Part shown: positions 1,426 through 21,167 of the stretch, piece after piece
Layout of the letters: the number at the start of each line of letters is the position of its first letter
Position numbering within the stretch: the first letter of the stretch is position 1
Origin: Amycolatopsis thermalba
GTDB taxonomy: Bacteria; Actinomycetota; Actinomycetes; Mycobacteriales; Pseudonocardiaceae
Assembly (NCBI RefSeq): GCF_003385215.1
Contig: NZ_PQHW01000055.1
Location: 1 to 44,445, forward strand
Reading direction: 5' to 3'
Length of the DNA: 44,445 nt
Notes under the pieces: generated by a model
Databases searched by the model: none
What the model was told of the DNA's origin: nothing
Seen by the model: only the letters and a program-made list of their open reading frames with translations
Program-made: the position numbers and the translations under genes

Positions 1426-4400
1426 GTGCCGTCCCTGCTCGTCGCGAACCGGGGCGAGATCGCCGTCCGGATCCTCGGCACCGCCGCCGCGCTGGGCTTC
1501 CGCACGGTCGCCGTGTATCCCGGGGACGACGCCGACTGCGCCCACGTCACCCGCGCCGACCACGCCGAACGCCTCGACGGCACCTACCTCGACGCCGCCG
1601 CGATCGTCGCCGCCGCGCAGCGCACCGGATGCGAGTTCCTGCACCCCGGTTACGGGTTCCTGTCCGAGAGCGCGGACCTCGCCCGCCGCTGCGCGGACGC
1701 CGGGATTCGCTTCGCCGGACCGTCCCCGGACGCCCTGGAACTGTTCGGCGACAAGACCCGCGCCCGGGCACGAGCCCGGGAGCTGGGCATTCCGGTCCTC
1801 GCGGGCACCGACGGCCCGACCGATCCGGCCACCGCCGAGGCGTTCTTCGCCGAGCACGGCGCGGTGATGGTCAAGGCGCTGGCCGGGGGCGGCGGACGCG
1901 GCATGCGACCGGTGACCGACGCGGCCGGCCTGCCCGCCGCACTGCGCCGCTGCGCCTCCGAAGCCCGGGCCGCGTTCGGCGACGGCTCGGTCTACCTGGA
2001 ACGGCTCCTCCCCCACGCCCGCCACATCGAGGTGCAGATCGCCGCCGACGGCGAGACGACGCTCGCGCTCGGCGACCGGGACTGCAGCCTGCAGCGCCGC
2101 CGCCAGAAGCTCATCGAGATCGCGCCCGCGACCCTCCCGGCGGAGCTCCGAAAGCGCTTGCACGAGTGCGCCACGCGGTTGGTCGGGTCCACTGTGTACC
2201 TTGGTCTGGCCACTGTGGAATTCCTGGTCGACGGCGGCGAATTCGTGTTCCTGGAGGTGAATCCGCGGTTGCAGGTCGAGCACACCGTGACCGAGGAGGT
2301 CACCGGGCTCGACCTGGTCGAGATCGGGCTCCGGCTGGCCGCGGGCGAACCACTGGACCGCACCGTCCCGCAGCCGCGGGGCGTGGCGATCCAGGCCAGG
2401 GTCAACACCGAGACGGTCCGGCCGGACGGCACCGTGCTGCCCGGCGGCGGCACGCTCACCACGTTCCAGCCGCCCACCGGCCGCGGCGTCCGCGTGGACA
2501 CCCACGGCTACCCGGGCTATCCCGGCAACCCGCGTTACGACTCGCTGCTGGCCAAGGTGATCGTCACCGGACACGACCTCGCCTCGGCCGCCGCCCGGTT
2601 GCGTCGCGCGCTGGGCGAATTCGCCATCACCGGGCCGCCGACGAACCTCGCCCTGCTCCGGGCGCTGCTGGCCGAGCCGCTCGGCACGGCCGACACCACG
2701 TTCGTGGACCGCCGCCTGCCGGACCTGGTGGACGAGATCACCGAGCCCGCGGCCGCGCCGGGCACGGTCACCGCGCCACAGCAGGGCGTGGTGGCGCAGG
2801 TGTGCGTGGCCGAGGGCGAGACGGTGCCGGCGGGCGCGGAACTCGTCGTGCTCGAGGCGATGAAGATGGAACACCTGATCACCGCCGAGCGGGGCGGCGC
2901 GGTGCTCGGGGTCGTGGTCAAGCCCGGTGACACCGTCACGGCCGGGGCGGTCCTGGTCACCCTGCGAGAGAACGGCGAGGTGACCGGAGCCGCCGAGGCG
3001 ACCGAGACCGACCTCGACCACATCCGGCCGGACCTCGCGGAAACCGTGGCGCGGCACGAGATCGGCCTGGACGCCGCGCGCCCGGACGCGGTGCGCAAGC
3101 GGCACTCCGCCGGGCAGCGGACCGCGCGGGAGAACGTCGAGGACCTGTGCGATCCCGGCAGCTTCACCGAGTACGGCGCCCTCGCGATCGCCGCGCAGCG
3201 CCGCCGCCGGGACCTCGGCGACCTGATCCGCCGCACCCCCGCCGACGGCCTGGTCACCGGCACCGCGACCGTCGGCGGGCGGCCGGTCGTCGTGCTGGCC
3301 TACGACTACACCGTGCTGGCCGGGACGCAGGGCGTGCACAACCACCGCAAGACCGACCGGATGCTGCGGCTGGCCCGGGACCGCGGCCTGCCGGTGGTGC
3401 TGTTCGCCGAGGGCGGCGGCGGGCGGCCGGGCGACACCGACACCTCCGCGGTCGCCCAGCTGGACGTGCCGACGTTCCGCATGGCCGCCCAGCTGGCCGG
3501 CGAGGTGCCGACGGTCGCGATCGTGTCGGGCTACTGCTTCGCCGGCAACGCGGCGCTGGCCGGGGTGTGCGACGTGGTCATCGCGACCGAGGGCAGTTCA
3601 CTGGGCATGGGCGGGCCGGCGATGATCGAGGGCGGCGGGCTCGGAGTCGTCGCGCCCGGCGACGTCGGGCCGATGCCGGTGCAGTACACCAACGGGGTCG
3701 TGGACGTGCTGGTCGCCGACGAGGCCGGGGCGGTCGACGTGGCCAAGCGTTACCTGTCCTACTTCGCCGGCCCGGCCGAGGCCGGGGAACCACACGACCA
3801 GCGCCGGTTGCGGCACCTGGTGCCGGAGAACCGGGTCCGCGTCTACGACGTGCGGCCGGTGCTGTCCACAGTGGCCGATCCCGGCAGCCTGCTCGAACTG
3901 CGCGCCGGGTTCGGGATCGGGGTGATCACCGCGCTGGCCCGGATCGGCGGGATCCCCGTGGGGGTGCTGGCGAACAACCCGGCCCACCTCGGCGGCGCGA
4001 TCGACGGCGACGCCGCCGACAAGGCGGCACGTTTCCTGGACCTGTGCCGCGCGCACGGCCTGCCGGTGGTGTCCTTCGTGGACACTCCGGGGTTCATGGT
4101 GGGCCCGGAGGCGGAGAAGACCGCGACGGTGCGGCGGTTCGGTGACCTGTTCGTCGCCGGGGCGCGGCTGACCTCGCCGCTGGTCGCGGTGGTGCTGCGC
4201 AAGGCCTACGGCCTGGGCGCGATGGCGATGACCGGCGGCTCGCTGCACGCGCCCGCGCTGACGGTGGCGTGGCCGACGGGCGAGTTCGGCGGCATGGGGC
4301 TGGAGGGCGCGGTGCGGCTGGGGTTCCGCGCGGACCTGGAGGCGATCGCCGACCCGGAGGCCCGGCACGCCCGCTACGCCGAGCTGGTGGCCGAGTACTA

Positions 4401-4509
4401 CGAGCGCGGCAAGGCCCTGAACACGGCGACGGTCTTCGAGATCGACGACGTGATCGACCCGGCCGGCACGCGGGAGCTCATCATCCGCACCCTCGGCGCG
4501 ACCGGCTGA
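1426..4509 (+). CDS. Single-chain multidomain acyl-CoA carboxylase (BC-BCCP-CT), LCC type
   Basis: 1027 residues holding a whole biotin-dependent carboxylase. The N-terminal biotin carboxylase (about 1-445) shows the ATP-grasp glycine-rich loop near 150-160 and the EVNPR motif at E277-R281. The biotinyl domain (about 450-520) carries EAMKME with biotinyl lysine K480. The carboxyltransferase (about 545-1020) has AccD-type N and C halves. Acyl-CoA carboxylases of actinobacteria are normally split into AccA and AccD subunits. The fused order here is that of the long-chain acyl-CoA carboxylase (LCC) described from Mycobacterium avium paratuberculosis, which accepts short to long acyl-CoAs. GTG start, 4 bp after the GT87 stop. 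The product is a malonyl-CoA-type alpha-carboxyacyl-CoA; the chain length used is not predictable. Confidence 0.9.
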   Translation: MPSLLVANRGEIAVRILGTAAALGFRTVAVYPGDDADCAHVTRADHAERLDGTYLDAAAIVAAAQRTGCEFLHPGYGFLSESADLARRCADAGIRFAGPSPDALELFGDKTRARARARELGIPVLAGTDGPTDPATAEAFFAEHGAVMVKALAGGGGRGMRPVTDAAGLPAALRRCASEARAAFGDGSVYLERLLPHARHIEVQIAADGETTLALGDRDCSLQRRRQKLIEIAPATLPAELRKRLHECATRLVGSTVYLGLATVEFLVDGGEFVFLEVNPRLQVEHTVTEEVTGLDLVEIGLRLAAGEPLDRTVPQPRGVAIQARVNTETVRPDGTVLPGGGTLTTFQPPTGRGVRVDTHGYPGYPGNPRYDSLLAKVIVTGHDLASAAARLRRALGEFAITGPPTNLALLRALLAEPLGTADTTFVDRRLPDLVDEITEPAAAPGTVTAPQQGVVAQVCVAEGETVPAGAELVVLEAMKMEHLITAERGGAVLGVVVKPGDTVTAGAVLVTLRENGEVTGAAEATETDLDHIRPDLAETVARHEIGLDAARPDAVRKRHSAGQRTARENVEDLCDPGSFTEYGALAIAAQRRRRDLGDLIRRTPADGLVTGTATVGGRPVVVLAYDYTVLAGTQGVHNHRKTDRMLRLARDRGLPVVLFAEGGGGRPGDTDTSAVAQLDVPTFRMAAQLAGEVPTVAIVSGYCFAGNAALAGVCDVVIATEGSSLGMGGPAMIEGGGLGVVAPGDVGPMPVQYTNGVVDVLVADEAGAVDVAKRYLSYFAGPAEAGEPHDQRRLRHLVPENRVRVYDVRPVLSTVADPGSLLELRAGFGIGVITALARIGGIPVGVLANNPAHLGGAIDGDAADKAARFLDLCRAHGLPVVSFVDTPGFMVGPEAEKTATVRRFGDLFVAGARLTSPLVAVVLRKAYGLGAMAMTGGSLHAPALTVAWPTGEFGGMGLEGAVRLGFRADLEAIADPEARHARYAELVAEYYERGKALNTATVFEIDDVIDPAGTRELIIRTLGATG

Positions 4510-4548
4510 CCGCGGAACCCGCTCGCCGCGGCGGTGCGCGGCCGGTCG
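4499..4548. terminator. Nested hairpin between convergent genes, possible terminator
   Basis: CGACCGG at 4499-4505 pairs with CCGGTCG at 4542-4548, and CCGCGG recurs at 4510 and 4526 inside. The element spans the stop of the carboxylase gene in a 53-bp gap between convergent genes. There is no T-run, so this is a weak call. Confidence 0.3.
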
Positions 4549-4562
4549 ATCCGGGTGCCGCC

Positions 4563-5003
4563 TCATTCCTCCAGCAGGAAGAGCGGGATCCGGCGGTCCG
4601 TCTTCTCCTGCCACTCGGTGTACGTCGGCCAGAGCGCGACAGCGTACTCCCACCACTGGCGACGCTCCTCGCCGTCGAGCCGGCGGGCGACGTAGGTCTT
4701 CCTGACCGGGCCGTCCTGCAGCTCCACCGTCGGGTGGGCACGGAGGTTGGCGACCCAGCCCGGGTTCTCGCGGCGGCCGCCGTTGGACGCCACCGCGAGG
4801 TACTTGCCGTCCTTCTCGATCCGCATGATCGGCGACTTGCGGATCTTGCCGGTCTTGGCGCCGACCGTGGTGAGCACGACGATCGGGGCCCCGCCGGGCT
4901 CGTTGAGGCTGACCTCCCCGCCGGACGACTCGAACTGCTCCACCGCTTCGCGGACCCAGTCCGTCGGGCTCGGCGCGTACTCGCCTTCGAAGTGATCACT
5001 CAC
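4563..5003 (-). CDS. Deazaflavin (F420)-dependent nitroreductase family oxidoreductase (Ddn/DUF385)
   Basis: About 146 residues from a GTG at 5003; an in-frame ATG-type start at 5057 would add 18 unconserved Arg/Gly-rich residues, so the shorter form is preferred. The protein has the split beta-barrel signature of the family: VVLTTVGAKTGK followed by SPIMRIEKDGKY, a NPGWVANLRAHP segment and a Trp-rich C-terminal region. Family members use F420H2 to reduce quinones or nitro compounds (for example mycobacterial Ddn), though many homologues have no known substrate. It stands alone, convergent with the carboxylase gene and downstream of the aldo/keto reductase on the same strand. Confidence 0.8.
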   Translation of the reverse strand: MSDHFEGEYAPSPTDWVREAVEQFESSGGEVSLNEPGGAPIVVLTTVGAKTGKIRKSPIMRIEKDGKYLAVASNGGRRENPGWVANLRAHPTVELQDGPVRKTYVARRLDGEERRQWWEYAVALWPTYTEWQEKTDRRIPLFLLEE

Positions 5004-5156
5004 GCTTGCCACAAGGCGGCCGCCGCCCGCGGTATTCCCGCCACGGCGGACGCGCACCCCTGCCGGGGCCGGTGATGACGCCTGGCCGGCTCCGGGCAGC
5101 GCGCCGCGGCCGGGCGCCGGCCATTGGCGCGGTCACCCGGCCGGAACGCACGAGCC

Positions 5157-6134
5157 CTACCAGCGCTCGTGCACCTGCGCCCGGATCCGCCGGTCGTACA
5201 GCTCCCGCACCGCCTCCAGCGTCGGCTCCGGCAGTGCCTCGACCCCAGCCGCCGCCGCGTTCGCTCGCGCCTGCTCCGCCGATCGCGCCCCCGGGATCAC
5301 CGACGTGACGCCCGGCTGCTGGATGATCCACCGCAACGCCGTCTGGGCGGGCGTCACGCCGGCCGGGGCCAGCGAACTGAACTCCGCGGCCGCCTCGACG
5401 CCCGTCGCGAAGTCCACCCCGCTGAACGTCTCCCCCTGGTCGAACGCCTCGCCGTGCCGGTTGAACGTCCGGTGGTCGTCCGTGGCGAACACCGTCTCCT
5501 TCGTGTAGCGGCCGGACAGCAGGCCGGACGCCAGCGGCACCCGCGCGATGATCCCCACCCCCGCCTCGGCGGCGGCCGGCAGCACCCGGTCGAGTGGCTT
5601 GAGCCGGAACGGGTTCAGGATGATCTGCACGCTCGCCGTGCCCGGGCGGGCGATCGCGGTCAGCGCCTCCGCGCACGTCTCGACGCTCACCCCGTACGCG
5701 GCGATCCGCTCCTCCGCCACCAGCGTGTCCAGCGCGTCGAACACGGCGTCACTGGAGTACACCGCCGCCGGCGGGCAGTGCAGCTGCACCAGGTCCAGCA
5801 CCTCGACCCCGAGGTTGGCCCGCGACCGGTCGGTCCACGCCCGGAAGTTCTCCAGCGTGTACTCACCCGGGTCCAGCGGCGCGCGACGGCCCATCTTGGT
5901 CGCCACGAACACGTCCGGGTGGTCGCGCAGAAACCGCCCGATGATCTGCTCGCTGCGGCCGTCACCGTAGACGTCGGCGGTGTCGAAGAACGTGACACCG
6001 GCCGACACCGCGGCCTCCAGCACCGCGAACGCCTCGGCCTCGCCGACCTCGCCCCAGTCCGCGCCCAGCTGCCACGTGCCGAGCCCGACCACCGACACCG
6101 CACGGCCGGTCCGGCCGAGAACCCGTTGCTCCAT
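5157..6134 (-). CDS. Aldo/keto reductase
   Basis: 325 residues from the ATG at 6134, where homology begins (GRTGRAVSVVGLGTW). The open frame continues upstream, but that stretch is antisense to the DUF998 gene and looks non-coding. The TIM-barrel family tetrad is visible: D51 and Y56 in FFDTADVYGDG, K80 in VATKMG, and His in VQLHCPP near residue 120. The NADPH-binding C-terminal part includes SVIPGARS. The protein reduces aldehydes or ketones with NADPH; the natural substrate is unknown. It is divergent from the DUF998 gene, the two starts being 100 bp apart. Confidence 0.88.
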   Translation of the reverse strand: MEQRVLGRTGRAVSVVGLGTWQLGADWGEVGEAEAFAVLEAAVSAGVTFFDTADVYGDGRSEQIIGRFLRDHPDVFVATKMGRRAPLDPGEYTLENFRAWTDRSRANLGVEVLDLVQLHCPPAAVYSSDAVFDALDTLVAEERIAAYGVSVETCAEALTAIARPGTASVQIILNPFRLKPLDRVLPAAAEAGVGIIARVPLASGLLSGRYTKETVFATDDHRTFNRHGEAFDQGETFSGVDFATGVEAAAEFSSLAPAGVTPAQTALRWIIQQPGVTSVIPGARSAEQARANAAAAGVEALPEPTLEAVRELYDRRIRAQVHERW

Positions 6135-6221
6135 GCCGACGATCCTAAGGGCCCCCACCGACAATCCCGGGCACGCGCCGAAACCGCCCACGAGATCACA
6201 AAACCCCCACACGTGCGCGCA

Positions 6222-6227
6222 TAAACT
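6222..6227 (+). promoter_or_regulatory. -10 element implying a leaderless DUF998 mRNA
   Basis: TAAACT ends 7 bp before the GTG at 6235, so the expected transcription start coincides with the start codon. There is no ribosome-binding sequence in front of the GTG. Confidence 0.5.
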
Positions 6228-6234
6228 GGGCCGG

Positions 6235-6909
6235 GTGACCACCACTCCGGCCCCCACCCGCGCGCCGCGGCTCCTCGCCCTGGGCTGCCTCACCGCGATC
6301 GCCGGGGGCGCCGCGCTCGTGCTCCTGCTGCAGTTCCTCCCGCCCACCGACCAGATCAGCCCGGTGCGCCGCACGATCAGCGAGTACGCCCTGAGCGCCA
6401 ACAAGTGGATCTTCGACATCGCGGTCCTGCTGATCGCCCTCGGCTCGGCGGTGCTGTTCGCCGCGCACGTGCTGATGCGGGCCCTGCCGGTCCGCTCGGC
6501 CGCGGTCGTGCTCGGTGCACTGTGGACGGTCAGCCTGCTGGTGGTGGTCGCGTTCCCCAAGACCGACTGGTCCGTCGGGCCGAGCCTGGGCGGGGTGGTG
6601 CACCGGTACGCGAGCGTCGTCGGGTTCGTGTGCCTGCCGGTCGGCCTGCTGTTCGCCGCGCGCCGCATCTTCCCGGACTCGCCGGGCTGGCGCTGGGCGG
6701 CCCGCGCGCTGGCGATCGTCTCGCTCGCCTGGTTCGGGCTCATCCTCGGTGCGGTCGGCTACATGCTCGCCGGGGGCGGGCCGTGGTGGCGCACGATCCC
6801 GCTGGGCCTGGTGGAGCGCCTGCTCGCGGCCACCGAACTGCTCGCGCTCGCCACGCTGGCCGTCCCGTTACTACGATCGAACCGAACCGGGGTGACCCAG
6901 GTCACTTAG
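6235..6909 (+). CDS. DUF998 family integral membrane protein
   Basis: 224 residues from GTG 6235, chosen because the hydrophobic pattern and the -10 element both fit it. About six membrane helices are visible, with the conserved first-loop pattern SPVRRTISEYAL and a charged FPKTDWS motif between helices three and four, typical of DUF998. The family has no established function. The gene ends about 30 bp before the TAAGCG dyad of the fabG promoter and is not obviously in that operon. Confidence 0.8.
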   Translation: MTTTPAPTRAPRLLALGCLTAIAGGAALVLLLQFLPPTDQISPVRRTISEYALSANKWIFDIAVLLIALGSAVLFAAHVLMRALPVRSAAVVLGALWTVSLLVVVAFPKTDWSVGPSLGGVVHRYASVVGFVCLPVGLLFAARRIFPDSPGWRWAARALAIVSLAWFGLILGAVGYMLAGGGPWWRTIPLGLVERLLAATELLALATLAVPLLRSNRTGVTQVT

Positions 6910-6938
6910 GCGCTCCGGGCCGGAGGCGAGTAGCTTTC

Positions 6939-6952
6939 TAAGCGCTCGCTTA
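6939..6952. promoter_or_regulatory. TetR-type operator, copy 1 (TAAGCG-N2-CGCTTA)
   Basis: TAAGCGCTCGCTTA is an inverted repeat with 6-bp perfect arms. It lies just downstream of a plausible -10 (TAGCTT, 6931-6936), over the predicted start of the fabG transcript. The identical 14-mer lies between the SDR and TetR genes at 15950. This suggests that the TetR protein encoded at 16032 controls both promoters. Confidence 0.65.
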
Positions 6953-6983
6953 CCGACGCGCTCAACGACGAGGAGGAGTTCCC

Positions 6984-7745
6984 GTGACCGAGTCCCACTC
7001 CCGGGTCGCCATCGTGACCGGCGCCGGCCGAGGCATCGGCGCCGCTGTCGCGCGCAAGCTGGCCTCGGACGGTTTCGCCGTCGCCCTGCTGGACCTCAAC
7101 GAGGAGTCCGTGAAGCAGGGCGCCGAGGACATCGCCGCGGCCGGCGGCAAGGCCATCGGGGTCGCGCTCGACGTCAGCAACACCGAGCAGGTCGAGGCCG
7201 CCGTCGCCCGGGTCGCCGAGGAGCTGGGCCCGCCGACCGTGCTGGTCAACAACGCCGGCATCACCCGGGACAACCTGCTCTTCAAGATGACCGACGAGGA
7301 CTGGGACTCGGTCATGAACGTGCACCTCAAGGGCTCGTTCCTGATGACCCGAGCGGTCCAGAAGCACATGACCGAGCAGCGCTGGGGCCGGATCGTGAAC
7401 CTGTCCAGCACCTCCGCGCTGGGCAACCGCGGCCAGGTCAACTACTCCGCGGCCAAGGCCGGCCTGCAGGGCTTCACCAAGACGCTGGCGATCGAGCTGG
7501 GCAAGTTCGGCGTCACCGCGAACGCGATCGCGCCGGGCTTCATCGAGACCGACATGACCGCCGCCACCGCGGAGCGCCTGGGCGTGCCGTTCGAGGACTT
7601 CAAGGCGTTCGCGGCCAAGGAGATCCCGGTGCAGCGCGTCGGCAAGCCCGAGGACATCGCCAACACCGTGTCGTTCCTGGTCAGCGAGGGCGCCGGGTTC
7701 GTCTCCGGCCAGGTCGTCTACGTCGCCGGCGGACCGAAGGACTGA
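6984..7745 (+). CDS. fabG: 3-oxoacyl-ACP reductase FabG-type short-chain dehydrogenase
   Basis: 253 residues from a GTG preceded by a strong GAGGAGGAG ribosome site. The classical SDR fold has TGAGRGIG for NADP binding near the N terminus, VNNAGI, catalytic Ser in NLSSTSA (141/142), and Y154-K158 in NYSAAKAG. The C-terminal GFIETDMT and VAGG segments are FabG-like. It reduces 3-oxoacyl-ACP or -CoA to the 3-hydroxy form, or the reverse in beta-oxidation. It is followed 4 bp later by a MaoC hydratase gene, giving two consecutive steps, and is likely controlled through the dyad at 6939. Confidence 0.9.
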   Translation: MTESHSRVAIVTGAGRGIGAAVARKLASDGFAVALLDLNEESVKQGAEDIAAAGGKAIGVALDVSNTEQVEAAVARVAEELGPPTVLVNNAGITRDNLLFKMTDEDWDSVMNVHLKGSFLMTRAVQKHMTEQRWGRIVNLSSTSALGNRGQVNYSAAKAGLQGFTKTLAIELGKFGVTANAIAPGFIETDMTAATAERLGVPFEDFKAFAAKEIPVQRVGKPEDIANTVSFLVSEGAGFVSGQVVYVAGGPKD

Positions 7746-7749
7746 GATC

Positions 7750-8202
7750 ATGCGCGTCTTCAACGGACTGGACGAGTTCACCGCCGCGGTCGGCGAGCAG
7801 CTGGGCACCAGCGACTGGCACACCGTCACGCAGGAGCAGGTCAACACCTTCGCCGACGCCACCGGCGACCACCAGTGGATCCACGTGGACGTCGAGAAGG
7901 CCAAGCAGGGCCCGTTCGGCGCCCCGATCGCGCACGGTTTCCTGACCCTGTCGGTGCTGCCGCTGCTGTCGGCGGGCACCTACCGCGTCGACGGGCTGAA
8001 GATGGGGATCAACTACGGCCTGAACAAGGTCCGGTTCCCGCAGCCGGTCAAGGTCGGCTCGAAGATCCGCGGGGTCGCCGAGCTGGCCGAGGTCACCGAC
8101 GTGCCGGGCGGCAAGCAGGTGGTGACGCGGTGGACGATCGAGATCGACGGCGAGGCCAAGCCGGCGTGCGTCGCCGAGTGGGTGACGCGCCTGATCGCCT
8201 GA
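7750..8202 (+). CDS. MaoC-family (R)-specific enoyl-CoA hydratase
   Basis: 150 residues with the hot-dog fold hydratase-2 motif: FADATGDHQWIHVD, with the catalytic Asp and His, followed by GAPIAHGFLTLS. Length and motif match the R-specific hydratases of the mycobacterial HtdZ (Rv0130) type, which hydrate 2-enoyl-CoA to (R)-3-hydroxyacyl-CoA. With the FabG gene 4 bp upstream it forms a pair converting 3-oxoacyl to 2-enoyl thioesters or back. A strong terminator hairpin follows directly. Confidence 0.9.
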   Translation: MRVFNGLDEFTAAVGEQLGTSDWHTVTQEQVNTFADATGDHQWIHVDVEKAKQGPFGAPIAHGFLTLSVLPLLSAGTYRVDGLKMGINYGLNKVRFPQPVKVGSKIRGVAELAEVTDVPGGKQVVTRWTIEIDGEAKPACVAEWVTRLIA

Positions 8203-8208
8203 GACGTG

Positions 8209-8228
8209 AGCCCGCCTCCGGGCGGGCT
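8209..8228 (+). terminator. GC hairpin after the fabG-MaoC pair
   Basis: AGCCCGCC-TCCG-GGCGGGCT, a perfect 8-bp stem 7 bp after the MaoC stop. It is followed by TCCGCT rather than a T-run. It separates the fabG-MaoC transcript from the next operon, which has its own operator at 8245. Confidence 0.7.
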
Positions 8229-8244
8229 TCCGCTACGGTGGGAC

Positions 8245-8262
8245 ATACCGACTGGTCGGTAT
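8245..8262. promoter_or_regulatory. TetR-type operator ATACCGAC-N2-GTCGGTAT
   Basis: ATACCGACTGGTCGGTAT has perfect 8-bp arms with a 2-bp centre, a classic form for TetR-family operators. It lies 23 bp before the kinase start, so it is placed to control the kinase/acyl-CoA dehydrogenase operon (8286-12809). Its sequence differs from the TAAGCG dyads, so a different repressor is expected. Confidence 0.7.
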
Positions 8263-8285
8263 AGCTATCTGGACAAGGAGGCCCA

Positions 8286-9305
8286 GTGACGCAGCAGGAC
8301 CTGCCCGGACTCGACCTCGCACGGCTGCGGGACTACCTGGACGAGCACTCCCCCGGGCTCGTCCAGGGCCCGCTCACCGGTGAGGTGGTGCAGGGCGGCC
8401 GGTCGAACCTGACCTACATCGTGGGCGACGGCGCCGGCCGCTGGGTGGTGCGCCGGCCCCCGCTCGGGCACGTCCTGCCCACCGCGCACGACATGGCCCG
8501 CGAGCACCGCGTCATCAGCGCGCTCGCGGACACGCCCGTGCCGGTGCCGCGGACGATCACGCTGTGCCAGGACACCGAGGTGCTCGGCGCGCCGTTCTAC
8601 GTGATGGAGTTCGTGCCGGGCACCCCCTACCGCGCGGCGAGCGAGCTGGAGGCGCTCGGTGAGGAGCGCACGCGGGCGATCGCCGAGTCGCTGATGGACA
8701 CCCTCGTCGACCTGCACACCGTCGACCCGGACGCGGTCGGGCTCGCCGATTTCGGCCGCCCGGAGGGGTTCCTGGAACGGCAGGTGCGCCGCTGGAAGAA
8801 GCAGCTGGACGCCTCCCGCAGCCGGGACCTGCCCGGCGTCGACGACCTGCACGACCAGCTGGCCCGCGCCATCCCGGCGTCCGGGCCCGCGGCCGTCGTG
8901 CACGGCGACTACCGGCTGGACAACGTCCTGGTCGACGAGACCGACCGCATCACCGCGGTGCTGGACTGGGAGATGTCCACGCTCGGGGACCCGCTGACCG
9001 ACCTGGCCCTGCTCATCGCCTACGCCGAGCGCGGCAAGGTCAACCTGGAGATCGTCTCCAACGTCAGCACCGCGCCCGGTTACCCGGGCACGGACGAGAT
9101 GATCGCGCGGTACGCGGCGCGGTCCGGCCGGGACGTCTCGGCGCTGGACTGGTACGTCGGGTTCGCGTTCTTCAAGCTCGCGGTGATCCTGGAAGGCATC
9201 TACTACCGGTTCAGCCAGGGCCAGACCGTGGGCGCCGGCTTCGACCAGATCGGCGCCGCGGTGGTCCCGCTCGTCACCCTCGGACTCGACACCCTCAAGG
9301 ACTGA
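8286..9305 (+). CDS. APH-like phosphotransferase, possible 4-hydroxyacyl-CoA kinase (LvaA/ACAD10-11 kinase-domain type)
   Basis: 339 residues, GTG start after an AAGGAG site. The aminoglycoside-phosphotransferase/choline-kinase fold shows the catalytic loop HGDYRLDN (H206, D208, N213) and the metal-binding VLDWE (D227). This branch is fused to or adjacent to acyl-CoA dehydrogenases: it is the N-terminal domain of human ACAD10 and ACAD11, and LvaA of levulinate catabolism in Pseudomonas putida, which phosphorylates 4-hydroxyacyl-CoA. Here the gene lies 2 bp from an ACAD11-like dehydrogenase gene, so I infer the same two-step removal of a 4-hydroxy group. It is not an antibiotic-resistance gene on this evidence. 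Confidence 0.8.
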   Translation: MTQQDLPGLDLARLRDYLDEHSPGLVQGPLTGEVVQGGRSNLTYIVGDGAGRWVVRRPPLGHVLPTAHDMAREHRVISALADTPVPVPRTITLCQDTEVLGAPFYVMEFVPGTPYRAASELEALGEERTRAIAESLMDTLVDLHTVDPDAVGLADFGRPEGFLERQVRRWKKQLDASRSRDLPGVDDLHDQLARAIPASGPAAVVHGDYRLDNVLVDETDRITAVLDWEMSTLGDPLTDLALLIAYAERGKVNLEIVSNVSTAPGYPGTDEMIARYAARSGRDVSALDWYVGFAFFKLAVILEGIYYRFSQGQTVGAGFDQIGAAVVPLVTLGLDTLKD

Positions 9306-18622: not shown

Positions 18623-19582
18623 ATGCCGCCGTCCGTTCCGCTGATCGACCTGACGTCCTGGTTCGACGGTTCCGGCCGCGGCCGGGTGGCCGCCGAGGTG
18701 GACCGCGCGCTGCGCGAGTCCGGTTTCCTGCTGATCACCGGGCACGGCGTGCCGGACGAGCTGCGCGCGCGGGTGCGGTCGCGGGCGCGGGAGTTCTTCG
18801 CCCTGCCGGCCGAGGTCAAGCGGCGGTACGCGGTGACGGTCGGCGGGCGCGGGTGGCTGCCGCCGGGTGTGGAGGCCAACGGCTACGCCGAGGGCACCGA
18901 AACCCCGCCGGACCTCAAGGAGTCCTACTCGGCAGGCGCGGACACCGCGACCGGGATCGCCGAGGTCGACGAGTTCTGGTTCCAGCCCAACGTGTGGCCG
19001 GCGGAGGTCCCGGAGTTCGCCACCGCGTCGCGCGAGTACCTGCGGCGGATGCGGGAGCTGTCGGACGAGCTGCTGACGGTGTTCGCGGCCGCGCTCGGCC
19101 TGCCGTCCGACCACTTCACCCGGCACACCGGGCACCCGACGTACACGTTCAACATCAACTGGTACCCGGCGCTGAACCGGGTCGGCGCGCCGGCGCCGGG
19201 GCAGTTCCGGATCGGGCCGCACACCGACTTCGGCACGGTGACGGTGCTGGACCGGCAGGCCGGGGTGGGCGGGCTGCAGGTCTGCACCAGTGACGGCGAG
19301 TGGGTGGACGCGCCGTACGACCCGGCGGCGTTCACGGTCAACATCGGGGATCTGATGGCACGCTGGACGGGCGACCGCTGGCGCTCGACGCGGCACCGGG
19401 TGCTGCCGCCCTCGGCCGACGCGCCGGAGGAGGACCTGGTGTCGCTCATCTTCTTCTACGAAACCGACCACGACGCGCGGATCACCTCGCTGGCGCCGCC
19501 GCTGGGCCGCACGGCGTACCCGGAGGTCGTGGCGTCGGAGTACCTGCGCGGGAAACTCGACGCGATCACCGTGGCCCCCTGA
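18623..19582 (+). CDS. 2-oxoglutarate/Fe(II)-dependent oxygenase, isopenicillin N synthase family
   Basis: 319 residues, ATG after a GAAGGAG site. The N-terminal DIOX_N-like part contains GFLLITGHGVPDEL; the jelly-roll core carries the facial triad H200 and D202 (GPHTDFGT) and H258 (STRHRVLPP). Such enzymes hydroxylate or oxidise small molecules. With a cytosine deaminase gene 10 bp upstream and a nucleobase permease gene downstream, a pyrimidine base such as thymine is a possible substrate, by analogy with fungal thymine-7-hydroxylase; this is inference only. Amino-acid or secondary-metabolite oxidation is the alternative. Confidence 0.82.
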   Translation: MPPSVPLIDLTSWFDGSGRGRVAAEVDRALRESGFLLITGHGVPDELRARVRSRAREFFALPAEVKRRYAVTVGGRGWLPPGVEANGYAEGTETPPDLKESYSAGADTATGIAEVDEFWFQPNVWPAEVPEFATASREYLRRMRELSDELLTVFAAALGLPSDHFTRHTGHPTYTFNINWYPALNRVGAPAPGQFRIGPHTDFGTVTVLDRQAGVGGLQVCTSDGEWVDAPYDPAAFTVNIGDLMARWTGDRWRSTRHRVLPPSADAPEEDLVSLIFFYETDHDARITSLAPPLGRTAYPEVVASEYLRGKLDAITVAP

Positions 19583-19601
19583 CCCCACTGGGACCAGGGG
19601 G
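19575..19601. terminator. Hairpin between the oxygenase gene and the convergent micro-gene
   Basis: CCCCCTG at 19575-19581 pairs with CAGGGGG at 19595-19601, overlapping the oxygenase TGA. It lies between convergent genes and could serve both. No T-run. Confidence 0.55.
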
Positions 19602-19611
19602 CGCGACGGCG

Positions 19612-19680
19612 TCAGTTGCGGCCGTACTCCCCGCCGCAGTCACAGCAGTTGCCACAGTTGCAGTTGCCCGGTTTCTCCAT
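19612..19680 (-). CDS. 22-residue Cys-rich peptide (metallothionein-like, unknown)
   Basis: ATG 19680 to TGA 19612 encodes 22 residues: MEKPGN, the core CNCGNCCDC at residues 7-15, then GGEYGRN. Five cysteines sit in nine positions with C-x-C, C-C and C-x-C spacings, as in metal-thiolate clusters. A good ribosome site (GAGGAAAGGGA) lies at the normal distance, which a chance ORF would rarely have. It is divergent from the NCS1 permease gene, sharing a 116-bp region with an 11-bp dyad, and convergent with the oxygenase gene. Possible roles: metal binding or sensing, a peptide precursor, or a Cys-codon-rich regulatory ORF. Nothing follows it on its strand to be attenuated. I do not recognise a family. 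Confidence 0.6.
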   Translation of the reverse strand: MEKPGNCNCGNCCDCGGEYGRN

Positions 19681-19749
19681 GGCGTCCCTTTCCTCGGATG
19701 GGGTTCGCAGTCCGGGTCGCGGGGCGGTGCGGGAAAGTTCCGCGGTTCA

Positions 19750-19780
19750 CCCGATGGTGCAACACGGACGCAACATCGGG
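19750..19780. promoter_or_regulatory. Dyad in the divergent region between the Cys-rich peptide and permease genes
   Basis: CCCGATGGTGC and GCAACATCGGG pair at 10 of 11 positions across 9 bp. The right arm ends 4 bp before the permease -10 (TACGGT, 19785-19790). It is placed to control one or both divergent genes. The regulator is unknown. Confidence 0.5.
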
Positions 19781-19784
19781 TGCC

Positions 19785-19790
19785 TACGGT
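19785..19790 (+). promoter_or_regulatory. -10 element implying a leaderless permease mRNA
   Basis: TACGGT ends 6 bp before ATG 19797 and there is no ribosome site. This also fixes the permease start against an upstream in-frame extension to 19698 that covers the dyad. Confidence 0.5.
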
Positions 19791-19796
19791 GCTGCC

Positions 19797-21167
19797 ATGG
19801 CGACCACGGCGGGGCGGAAAACGGGCGGATACGGCGAACAGGTCGTCGCGGTCGAACCGGGCGGTATCGAGCCGGTGGCGGCGGCCGACCGGCACGGCAG
19901 GCCGCGTCAGCTGTTCTGGACGTGGGCCTCGCCGAACCTGGAGTTCGCCACGATCTTCGTCGGGGTGCTGGCAGTGTCGGCGTTCGGGCTGAGTTTCGCG
20001 CAGGCCGTGATCGCGGTGGCGATCGGCAACGGGCTGGGCGCGGTGTCGCACGGCGTGCTGTCCGCGCGCGGGCCGCGGTTCGGGGTGCCGCAGATGGTGT
20101 TGAGCCGCCTGGCGTTCGGCTACCGCGGCAACACGGTGCCGGCGGCGCTGATGTCGGTGACGGCGGGGATCGGCTGGTTCGCGGTCAACAGCGTCAGCGG
20201 GGCGTTCGCGCTCGGCACGCTGACCGGGATGCCGGTGCTGCTGTGCCTGGTGATCGTGGTGGTGCTGCAGATCGGGATCGCGTTCTTCGGGCACAACCTG
20301 GTGCAGGCTTACGAGCGCTGGATCTTCGGGGTGCTGGCGGTGGTGTTCGCGGCCGGGGCGGTGGTCACGTTCGCGCGGGCGTCGCCGGGTGCGGTCGCCG
20401 GAACCGGTGGAGTGGGCGGGTTCCTGCTGACCGTCGGCGCGGCGTTCGGGTACACGGCGGGCTGGAACCCTTACGCCGCGGATTACACGCGATACCTGCC
20501 GGAGTCGGTGAGCGGCCGGGCGGTCGGCTGGGCCGCGGGCGGTGGCCTGTTCGTGGCGACGACGGTGCTGATGGCGACGGGCGCGGCGTCGGCGACCCTG
20601 GGCGGTGGGGAGGGCAGTCCGACCGCGGCGTTCACCGGGCACATGCCGGGCTGGCTGGCCGCGCTGACGCTGCTGGCGATCGCACTCGGGGCGGTGGCCG
20701 CGAACGCGCTCAACGTCTACTCGGGAGCGCTGGCGTTCCTCACGCTGGGCGTGCAGCTGCCGCTGGCGTGGCGGCGGGCGCTGGTGGCGCTCGCGTTCGG
20801 CGTCGTCGGGTTCGTGCTGGCGTGGCTGGGGCTCGCCGACGCGGGGACGGCGTACGAGCACTTCCTGCTGGTGATCGCGTACTGGGTGAGCCCGTGGCTG
20901 GGCGTGGTGTTCGCCGACCAGCTGATGCGGCGCGGGCAGGCGGGGCTGGACCGCCTGCTGTCCGACACCGGGCGGTGGGGGTGGCCGGGGCTGGTGGCGT
21001 TCCTGGTCGCGGCGGTGGTGTCGATCGTGTTGTTCGCGAACCAGACGCTGTACGCGGGGCCGGTGCCGCGGGCGGTGCCGGCGGTGGGCGACGTGACGTG
21101 TTTCGCCGGCTTCGGCTTGGCGGCCGGGCTCTACGCGGTGCTGGGCCGCCGCTGGGTGCGTGGCTGA
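19797..21167 (+). CDS. NCS1 family purine/cytosine permease
   Basis: 456 residues, about 12 membrane helices. The N-terminal cytoplasmic part is followed by the NCS1 signature LFWTWASPNLEFATIFVG at the start of helix 1, a RGPRFGVPQMVLSR loop, and AGWNPYAADYTRYLP in the substrate-site region of helix 6. This is the CodB/PucI/Mhp1 superfamily of proton- or sodium-coupled importers of nucleobases and related heterocycles. The cytosine deaminase and oxygenase genes upstream suggest cytosine or a methylated pyrimidine as cargo. It is convergent with the nitroreductase remnant 3 bp away. Confidence 0.88.
   Translation: MATTAGRKTGGYGEQVVAVEPGGIEPVAAADRHGRPRQLFWTWASPNLEFATIFVGVLAVSAFGLSFAQAVIAVAIGNGLGAVSHGVLSARGPRFGVPQMVLSRLAFGYRGNTVPAALMSVTAGIGWFAVNSVSGAFALGTLTGMPVLLCLVIVVVLQIGIAFFGHNLVQAYERWIFGVLAVVFAAGAVVTFARASPGAVAGTGGVGGFLLTVGAAFGYTAGWNPYAADYTRYLPESVSGRAVGWAAGGGLFVATTVLMATGAASATLGGGEGSPTAAFTGHMPGWLAALTLLAIALGAVAANALNVYSGALAFLTLGVQLPLAWRRALVALAFGVVGFVLAWLGLADAGTAYEHFLLVIAYWVSPWLGVVFADQLMRRGQAGLDRLLSDTGRWGWPGLVAFLVAAVVSIVLFANQTLYAGPVPRAVPAVGDVTCFAGFGLAAGLYAVLGRRWVRG

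Follow-up and report, generated by a model that had tools for sequence, protein, structure and literature searches.

A 22-residue cysteine-rich micro-gene of Amycolatopsis shares a putative stress promoter with CopC-domain genes: a candidate minimal metal-binding peptide

Can a frame of 22 codons with five cysteines be a gene in its own right, and if so, what would its product do? The question is raised by a contig of Amycolatopsis thermalba (NZ_PQHW01000055.1 of RefSeq assembly GCF_003385215.1; the whole stretch analyzed, 44,445 nucleotides (nt), is called the window), in which positions 19680..19612 of the minus strand, by translation of the open reading frame (ORF), encode the peptide MEKPGNCNCGNCCDCGGEYGRN*, with an ATG at 19680 and a TGA stop at 19614..19612. 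Its cysteines lie at positions 7, 9, 12, 13 and 15 in the core CNCGNCCDC, an arrangement, CxCxxCCxC, that has the CxC/CC composition of metallothioneins and is the same in the ten sequences compared below. An earlier reading made from the sequence alone (the sequence-only reading) had singled out this core, at coordinates that proved correct and now belong to the minus strand, and had proposed a minimal metallothionein, a modified-peptide precursor or a short regulatory ORF. Below, the 22-residue peptide is called type A, the genome of the window G000, and the genus set comprises 19 genomes.

Sequence comparison indicates that the ORF is a real gene, conserved far beyond chance. The peptide was found in nine of the 19 genus genomes at E <= 4.6e-9, near-identical throughout, with K3T as the sole internal amino-acid difference and, in G008 and G018, a GTG start two codons upstream of the usual one. 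A tenth genome, that of A. acidicola (G001), encodes the divergent relative MAEKPGNCSCGNCSTEHCVKCERRRH (E 4.1e-9), and a viral/prophage contig of the IMG/VR collection encodes MNSETPGNCNCGNCCDCGGEYGRN. Across the ten sequences from the nine genomes and the viral contig, seven sense codons vary silently only, one codon varies between K and T and is also silently different at its third base, and the stop codon is either TGA or TAG; when 9, 10 or 11 random changes were simulated, 20,000 times each, no run produced fewer than two replacements. Five representatives compared without gaps are 88-98% identical over the ORF, against 25-38% in the 120 nt past the stop. The sequence-only reading had staked its micro-gene on a conserved start and cysteine spacing in related genomes and on a check for purifying selection, and within the genus both came out in its favor. 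Its good ribosome site is likewise present, as the Shine-Dalgarno sequence GAGGAAAGGGA (19685..19695, minus strand) 4 nt ahead of the ATG. A C-terminal tail of a longer frame was considered and rejected: the enclosing frames run to ~520-540 residues in four relatives and to 44-118 residues in the other five, and the peptide's own start and Shine-Dalgarno site are retained across the genomes.

How is such a gene transcribed? Upstream of all 11 copies (nine genomes, the A. acidicola variant and the viral contig), which occupy five kinds of context, stands the element GGAAC-N17/18-CGAC, with a spacer of 17 in ten copies and of 18 in one (G008). The window holds a single exact occurrence of GGAAC-N17-CGAC on both strands, at 19741..19716 of the minus strand, made up of a -35-like GGAAC (19737..19741) and, 17 bp past it and 35 nt before the ATG, a -10-like CGAC (19716..19719), both elements being present in 11 of 11 copies; 5 nt ahead of the -35 lies an upstream element CGGGTGA (19747..19753, minus strand), identical in seven copies and replaced by related forms in four. 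A GGAAC-type -35 with a short -10 at fixed spacing is the consensus type of promoters that depend on extracytoplasmic function (ECF) sigma factors. The peptide promoter has this layout, with near-fixed spacing, and we infer that an ECF sigma factor recognizes GGAAC/CGAC. In the nine chromosomal loci, which were picked for holding the peptide and amount to 400,906 strand-bases, all eight exact occurrences of GGAAC-N17-CGAC lie ahead of the peptide, the ninth locus (G008) having the spacer of 18. Within 200 nt upstream of 16 type A and type B genes (type B is described below), spacer 17 occurs 14 times and other spacers 0 to 2 times each.

The promoter also leads to other genes. When a profile built from ten of the 11 copies (the near-duplicate L007 left out) was run over the 19 genomes, the top ten matches were peptide copies, and eight of the next 11 precede CopC-domain genes (G009, G011, G015, G017), YbaK-like genes (G001, G005), a type B gene (G005) or a type C gene (G003); of the remaining three, one lies inside the copC-ybaK locus of G011, where its target is ambiguous, and two have no assigned gene. 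Slightly lower matches stand at a DsbA-like gene in G007 and a DUF5134 gene in G002. The exact motif precedes CopC-domain genes twice in each of G006, G009, G015 and G017 and once in G000, with the CopC domain PF04234 assigned in all five genomes. The YbaK-like gene has the exact motif upstream in eight of the nine genomes of the type A clade, 77 nt before its start in six, while in G016 a spacer-18 form stands farther upstream. The tRNA-editing domain PF04073 was assigned to the YbaK-like protein of G000; since the NCBIfam scores of the G005 YbaK-like protein, as of the G011 CopC protein, fall under the curated cut-offs, the label 'Cys-tRNA editing' is not certain.

Two further kinds of small cysteine-rich protein share the element. 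Type B, for example MKGCCGNSCGSCSGSGCGCCSGCK, has 8 cysteines in 24-32 residues and was found among 390 family genomes in G005, G010, G011, G012 and G013 at E <= 9.2e-8, with one extra weak match at E 0.0025. The G005 gene was discovered through the promoter, those of G011 and G013 near promoter matches on the opposite strand, and those of G012 and G010 by peptide search alone; the exact motif stands ahead of four of the five, G012 included. Type B has little in common with type A but Cys, Gly and Asn. Type C is a protein of 65 residues with CGNCNCGC near its start, present in 112 of the 390 family genomes. Among the 20 best loci of these 112 matching genomes, near-duplicates included (L241 and L243 come from one genus), the exact motif lies within 260 nt in seven, as compared with four of 432 background windows (Fisher P 3e-8), and in six of 19 once the promoter-found G003 is set aside; three of the seven motif-bearing loci, G003 among them, belong to Amycolatopsis. 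GGTGA-like forms of the upstream element also precede several type B and type C genes. The G003 type C protein had no Pfam or NCBIfam match. The fold predicted for type C is confident (predicted local distance difference test score 89.6), but its best PDB match, at E 0.92, missed the cut-off of E <= 0.001, so that it offered no hint of function. Within the genus, type A or its variant occurs in ten genomes, type B in five, and type C in G002, G003 and G010. Types A and B never occur together in the 19 genomes (P 0.011, without phylogenetic correction), and type B seems to take the place of type A in other members of the genus.

As a separate observation on type C (L224-L243; e.g., L141:1615-1809), TFCGxCxCGCPEL and TDDFGQ are invariant in 19 aligned members. 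Just after the promoters of copC, ybaK and type C loci there is, moreover, a hairpin leader of 43-48 nt that is highly conserved, GTCACrCCGGGCCGGTCCGCC..GCCCACC.GCCCGGyGTC, represented by 15 distinct sequences (L159:363-405, L149:1540-1583, L140:1551-1596, L148:1551-1595, L232:1413-1457 and ten more), for which RNAalifold gives 14 pairs at -23.2 kcal/mol, one pair being changed on both sides. It had no Rfam match in four of its loci, and is a candidate for a new RNA element or operator.

Where does the peptide gene sit? The nine type A genomes use three chromosomal sites. In five, including the window, the gene lies between a convergent 2-oxoglutarate-Fe(II) (2OG-Fe(II)) oxygenase gene (18623..19582, plus strand; PF14226, PF03171) and a divergent gene for a cytosine/purine-type permease (19797..21167, plus strand; Transp_cyt_pur, PF02133, E 2.3e-34), the nucleobase permease of the sequence-only reading. 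In G007 it precedes a co-directional gene with a weak match to flavin mononucleotide (FMN) reductase, and G016 looks alike; in G008 and G018 it precedes a convergent serine-carboxypeptidase-like gene, the other flank being a Ppx/GppA gene in G008, with two additional genes intervening in G018. In the viral contig, phage portal and capsid genes occur in two sets, one on each side of the peptide gene, and an integrase lies 1.4 kb away from it. The gene is followed by a hairpin, as the sequence-only reading had noted: the 75 nt 3' of the stop fold at -39.8 kcal/mol, with the terminator hairpin GCCCCCTGGTCCCAGTGGGGTCAGGGGGC predicted by RNA folding at 19574..19602 (minus strand), overlapping the 3' end of the convergent oxygenase gene. 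Post-stop hairpins are found in the other eight genomes with the peptide as well, that of the viral copy being weaker (-27.1 kcal/mol).

Three relatives that lack the peptide, G003, G012 and G004, have the oxygenase and permease genes 34-45 bp apart, compared with a gap of 214 bp in the window, so that filled and empty sites differ by ~170 bp, which corresponds to promoter, ORF and terminator. By this comparison a ~170-bp module, extending approximately over 19583..19755 (minus strand), is an insertion between the two genes. In a ybaK tree of 18 of the 19 genomes (G004 left out), the nine type A genomes group together in a single clade (100/99) in which G007 with G016 and G008 with G018 are sister pairs, and the other five join neither pair, several inner branches being weak; given this grouping, the insertion sites look specific to sub-groups. 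A stretch before the permease gene (19756-19796; GTGCAAC..GCAACATCGGG..TACGGTGC) has counterparts at the empty sites and is thus probably the permease's own ancestral upstream region. Together with the end of the inserted module it forms a near-palindrome. We discounted as spurious a tRNA-Cys that was called within the oxygenase region of one relative.

The distribution of type A is narrow. When 297 family genomes, including the 19 of the genus, were searched with the protein, 45 had matches at E <= 1, of which nine were strong (E <= 1.3e-9) and all of the genus; of 27 weak loci inspected from this and the genus search, one was the A. acidicola variant and the others were judged to be chance. 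The exact pattern matched in five of 397 order genomes, all of the genus, and a profile search of 394 class genomes returned the own genome and four others at E <= 0.05, those four judged to be chance. Nothing convincing was thus found outside the genus in these family, order and class sets, which overlap and contain genus members. In the GTDB species collection the pattern matched 12 stretches, three of them Amycolatopsis copies (the A. acidicola variant, A. tucumanensis and A. deserti) and nine of them unrelated frames without the promoter. Among viral contigs, the type A pattern matched 43 stretches, with the peptide in L101 alone, and the type B pattern 12, none of them type B-like; searches of 50,697 phage and 72,556 plasmid records recovered neither peptide. 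No description of the peptide, of its string NCNCGNCC or of the pairing of promoter and copC was found in the literature, most subscription journals lying outside the scope of that search.

On balance, and with modest confidence, we read type A as a minimal cytosolic, metallothionein-like and probably copper-binding peptide that belongs to an ECF-type stress regulon. The free-standing micro-gene would be transcribed on the minus strand from the GGAAC-N17-CGAC promoter, translated from GAGGAAAGGGA, and its transcript ended by the hairpin just past the stop. The 22-residue product has no visible signal sequence and would act in the cytosol, where the CNCGNCCDC core may coordinate a soft metal ion through its thiolates, probably Cu(I) and possibly Zn, as a metallothionein-like buffer. 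The same promoter type would drive the CopC-domain gene, the YbaK-like aminoacyl-tRNA editing gene and the other small cysteine-rich peptides. A metallothionein is favored because the promoter element is common to CopC-domain genes and to other small cysteine-rich proteins, and copper is the likeliest metal because those genes share the promoter; we infer that the peptide binds metal and that the signal is copper or thiol stress. The minimal metallothionein proposed by the sequence-only reading has thus gained from the promoter shared with CopC-domain genes; a family match is what it lacks.

The mycobacterial metallothionein MymT has ~53 residues and fungal copper metallothioneins ~25. Type A resembles them in being small and cysteine-dense with CxC and CC motifs, and its promoter connects it with CopC-domain genes; it differs from MymT in its shorter length (22 residues, 5 cysteines), in matching no family, and in that its metal binding is only predicted. 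A parallel on the regulatory side is SigC of Mycobacterium tuberculosis, an actinobacterial ECF sigma factor that can govern copper genes (PMC7924339); its named targets differ, and the words copC and ybaK are absent from that text. One carrier of the peptide, A. tucumanensis, is described in two papers (PMC8503819, PMC4339716) as a copper-resistant isolate from copper-polluted sediment.

More tentatively, types A (22 residues), B (24-32) and C (65) could be interchangeable effectors of a GGAAC-N17-CGAC regulon of Pseudonocardiaceae, unrelated or barely related solutions to metal buffering, a view to which we give somewhat less than even weight. If these readings are true, type A, a ~170-bp module present at three sites in chromosomes and also in a viral/prophage element, would be among the smallest bacterial metallothioneins; it would show how small a bacterial metal-binding stress peptide can be, and would suggest that unrelated peptides can replace each other in function under one type of promoter. 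Annotation pipelines usually pass over genes of this length. This one combines near-total constraint at the protein level with testable chemistry and a recognizable promoter common to other genes, a DNA handle for finding similar micro-genes that led to the G003 type C protein and the G005 type B gene.

Several observations weigh against this reading. Five cysteines are few for a metal cluster, the near-invariant non-cysteine residues (PGN, GGEYGRN) exceed what a plain buffer needs, and type A has no Pfam, NCBIfam or PDB sequence match that would place it in a described metallothionein family. As to the promoter, spacers other than 17 are not rare: the nine peptide loci gave 0 to 16 matches for each spacer from 12 to 23, with 16 for N16 and for N19, and a wider set of 709,166 strand-bases, partly picked by promoter matches, holds 60 exact N17 motifs. 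Of 40 weaker profile matches, 35 fall inside ORFs of a crude gene finder, so that most are probably chance; the finder is in error for the copC promoters of G000 and G009 at least, which it places inside ORFs. In the type A clade the upstream CGGGTGA element is missing from the promoters of copC and ybaK, the G010 type B gene lacks the exact motif and shows by eye a degraded form, and 13 of the 20 type C genes are without the exact motif. Type A itself is absent from nine of the 19 genomes, and at the thresholds applied G004 and G014 carry neither type A nor type B nor type C; the mutual exclusion of types A and B may reflect clades only, because the nine type A genomes form one clade.

If not a buffer, the peptide might be a regulator. 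In this alternative, which we consider unlikely but the best of those that follow, Zn binding or disulfide formation takes place at the cysteine core and the peptide senses redox state or acts as a feedback device by binding a partner, possibly an anti-sigma factor, RNA polymerase or the sigma factor of the regulon. Near-invariance outside the core does suggest a specific surface, and the promoter type also stands at YbaK-like genes and, in one genome, at a DsbA-like gene; the apparent substitutes of type B, however, resemble type A in little beyond Cys, Gly and Asn, a pattern that suits bulk thiol or metal chemistry more than a specific interface.

The modified-peptide precursor of the sequence-only reading, here a leaderless ribosomally synthesized and post-translationally modified peptide (RiPP) whose modifying enzyme is encoded elsewhere, found little support and appears improbable. 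In its favor, type A is short and rich in cysteine, like cysteine-rich RiPP precursors such as the MNIO-modified peptides, it is extremely conserved and present on a viral/prophage contig, and one site has a 2OG oxygenase next to it, another a serine-carboxypeptidase-like gene. Among the nearest neighbors classified, however, no modification gene recurs across the five kinds of site, and three relatives have the oxygenase gene but not the peptide.

We regard as comparably improbable that type A is a mobile micro-gene serving a mobile element, a phage moron acting, for example, against host stress or defense. Its place between two prophage-like segments of the IMG/VR contig, near the integrase, and its three chromosomal sites within one clade are what such a gene might show, but it is retained in all nine genomes of the clade, its promoter element is common to host genes, it has no match to a defense family, and the phage and plasmid records searched did not contain it.

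A leader peptide whose cysteine codons attenuate a downstream gene, the regulatory sense of the short ORF that the sequence-only reading had entertained, is very improbable and is rejected on gene context. Polycysteine short ORFs of mycobacteria act as cysteine attenuators, and type A shares with them a short, cysteine-dense ORF, here followed by a hairpin. An attenuator is placed just upstream of the gene it controls and in the same direction; in the window, in contrast, the peptide gene has its own terminator and no co-directional gene behind it, and the next gene is convergent at four of the five kinds of site (the window, G008/G018, G001 and the viral contig), being co-directional in G007/G016 alone. 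The conserved non-cysteine residues would be unneeded in an attenuator, and where the mycobacterial ORFs are leaderless, a point of difference that the sequence-only reading had itself raised, this gene has a predicted leader of ~30 nt, with the -10-like element 35 nt before the ATG and a Shine-Dalgarno site at 19695..19685. Least credible of all is a non-coding DNA or RNA element that is open by chance, for which the high nucleotide identity (88-98%) would speak, but which is rejected by differences that are nearly all silent and a stop that varies between TGA and TAG, and which gave no match in an Rfam search.

Some minor observations concern individual carriers. In G007 the peptide gene (L054:9738-9797, plus strand) lies ~0.5 kb from a divergent, complete 16S-23S-5S rRNA operon (4116-9230, minus strand), with its promoter close to the rRNA promoter region. 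The IMG/VR contig G968 (L126, L101, L127), 48.5 kb in length, contains two portal-plus-capsid gene sets, between which lie the peptide gene, a GntR gene and an FtsK-like gene, and this suggests two neighboring prophages. On this contig the type A gene is adjoined by a gene for a small protein with PxGSGINGRPIL (L101:6930-7238, minus strand; this copy is without a Pfam match), and a small protein of the same kind also adjoins the type B gene in G013 (L143 from ~1870, plus strand).
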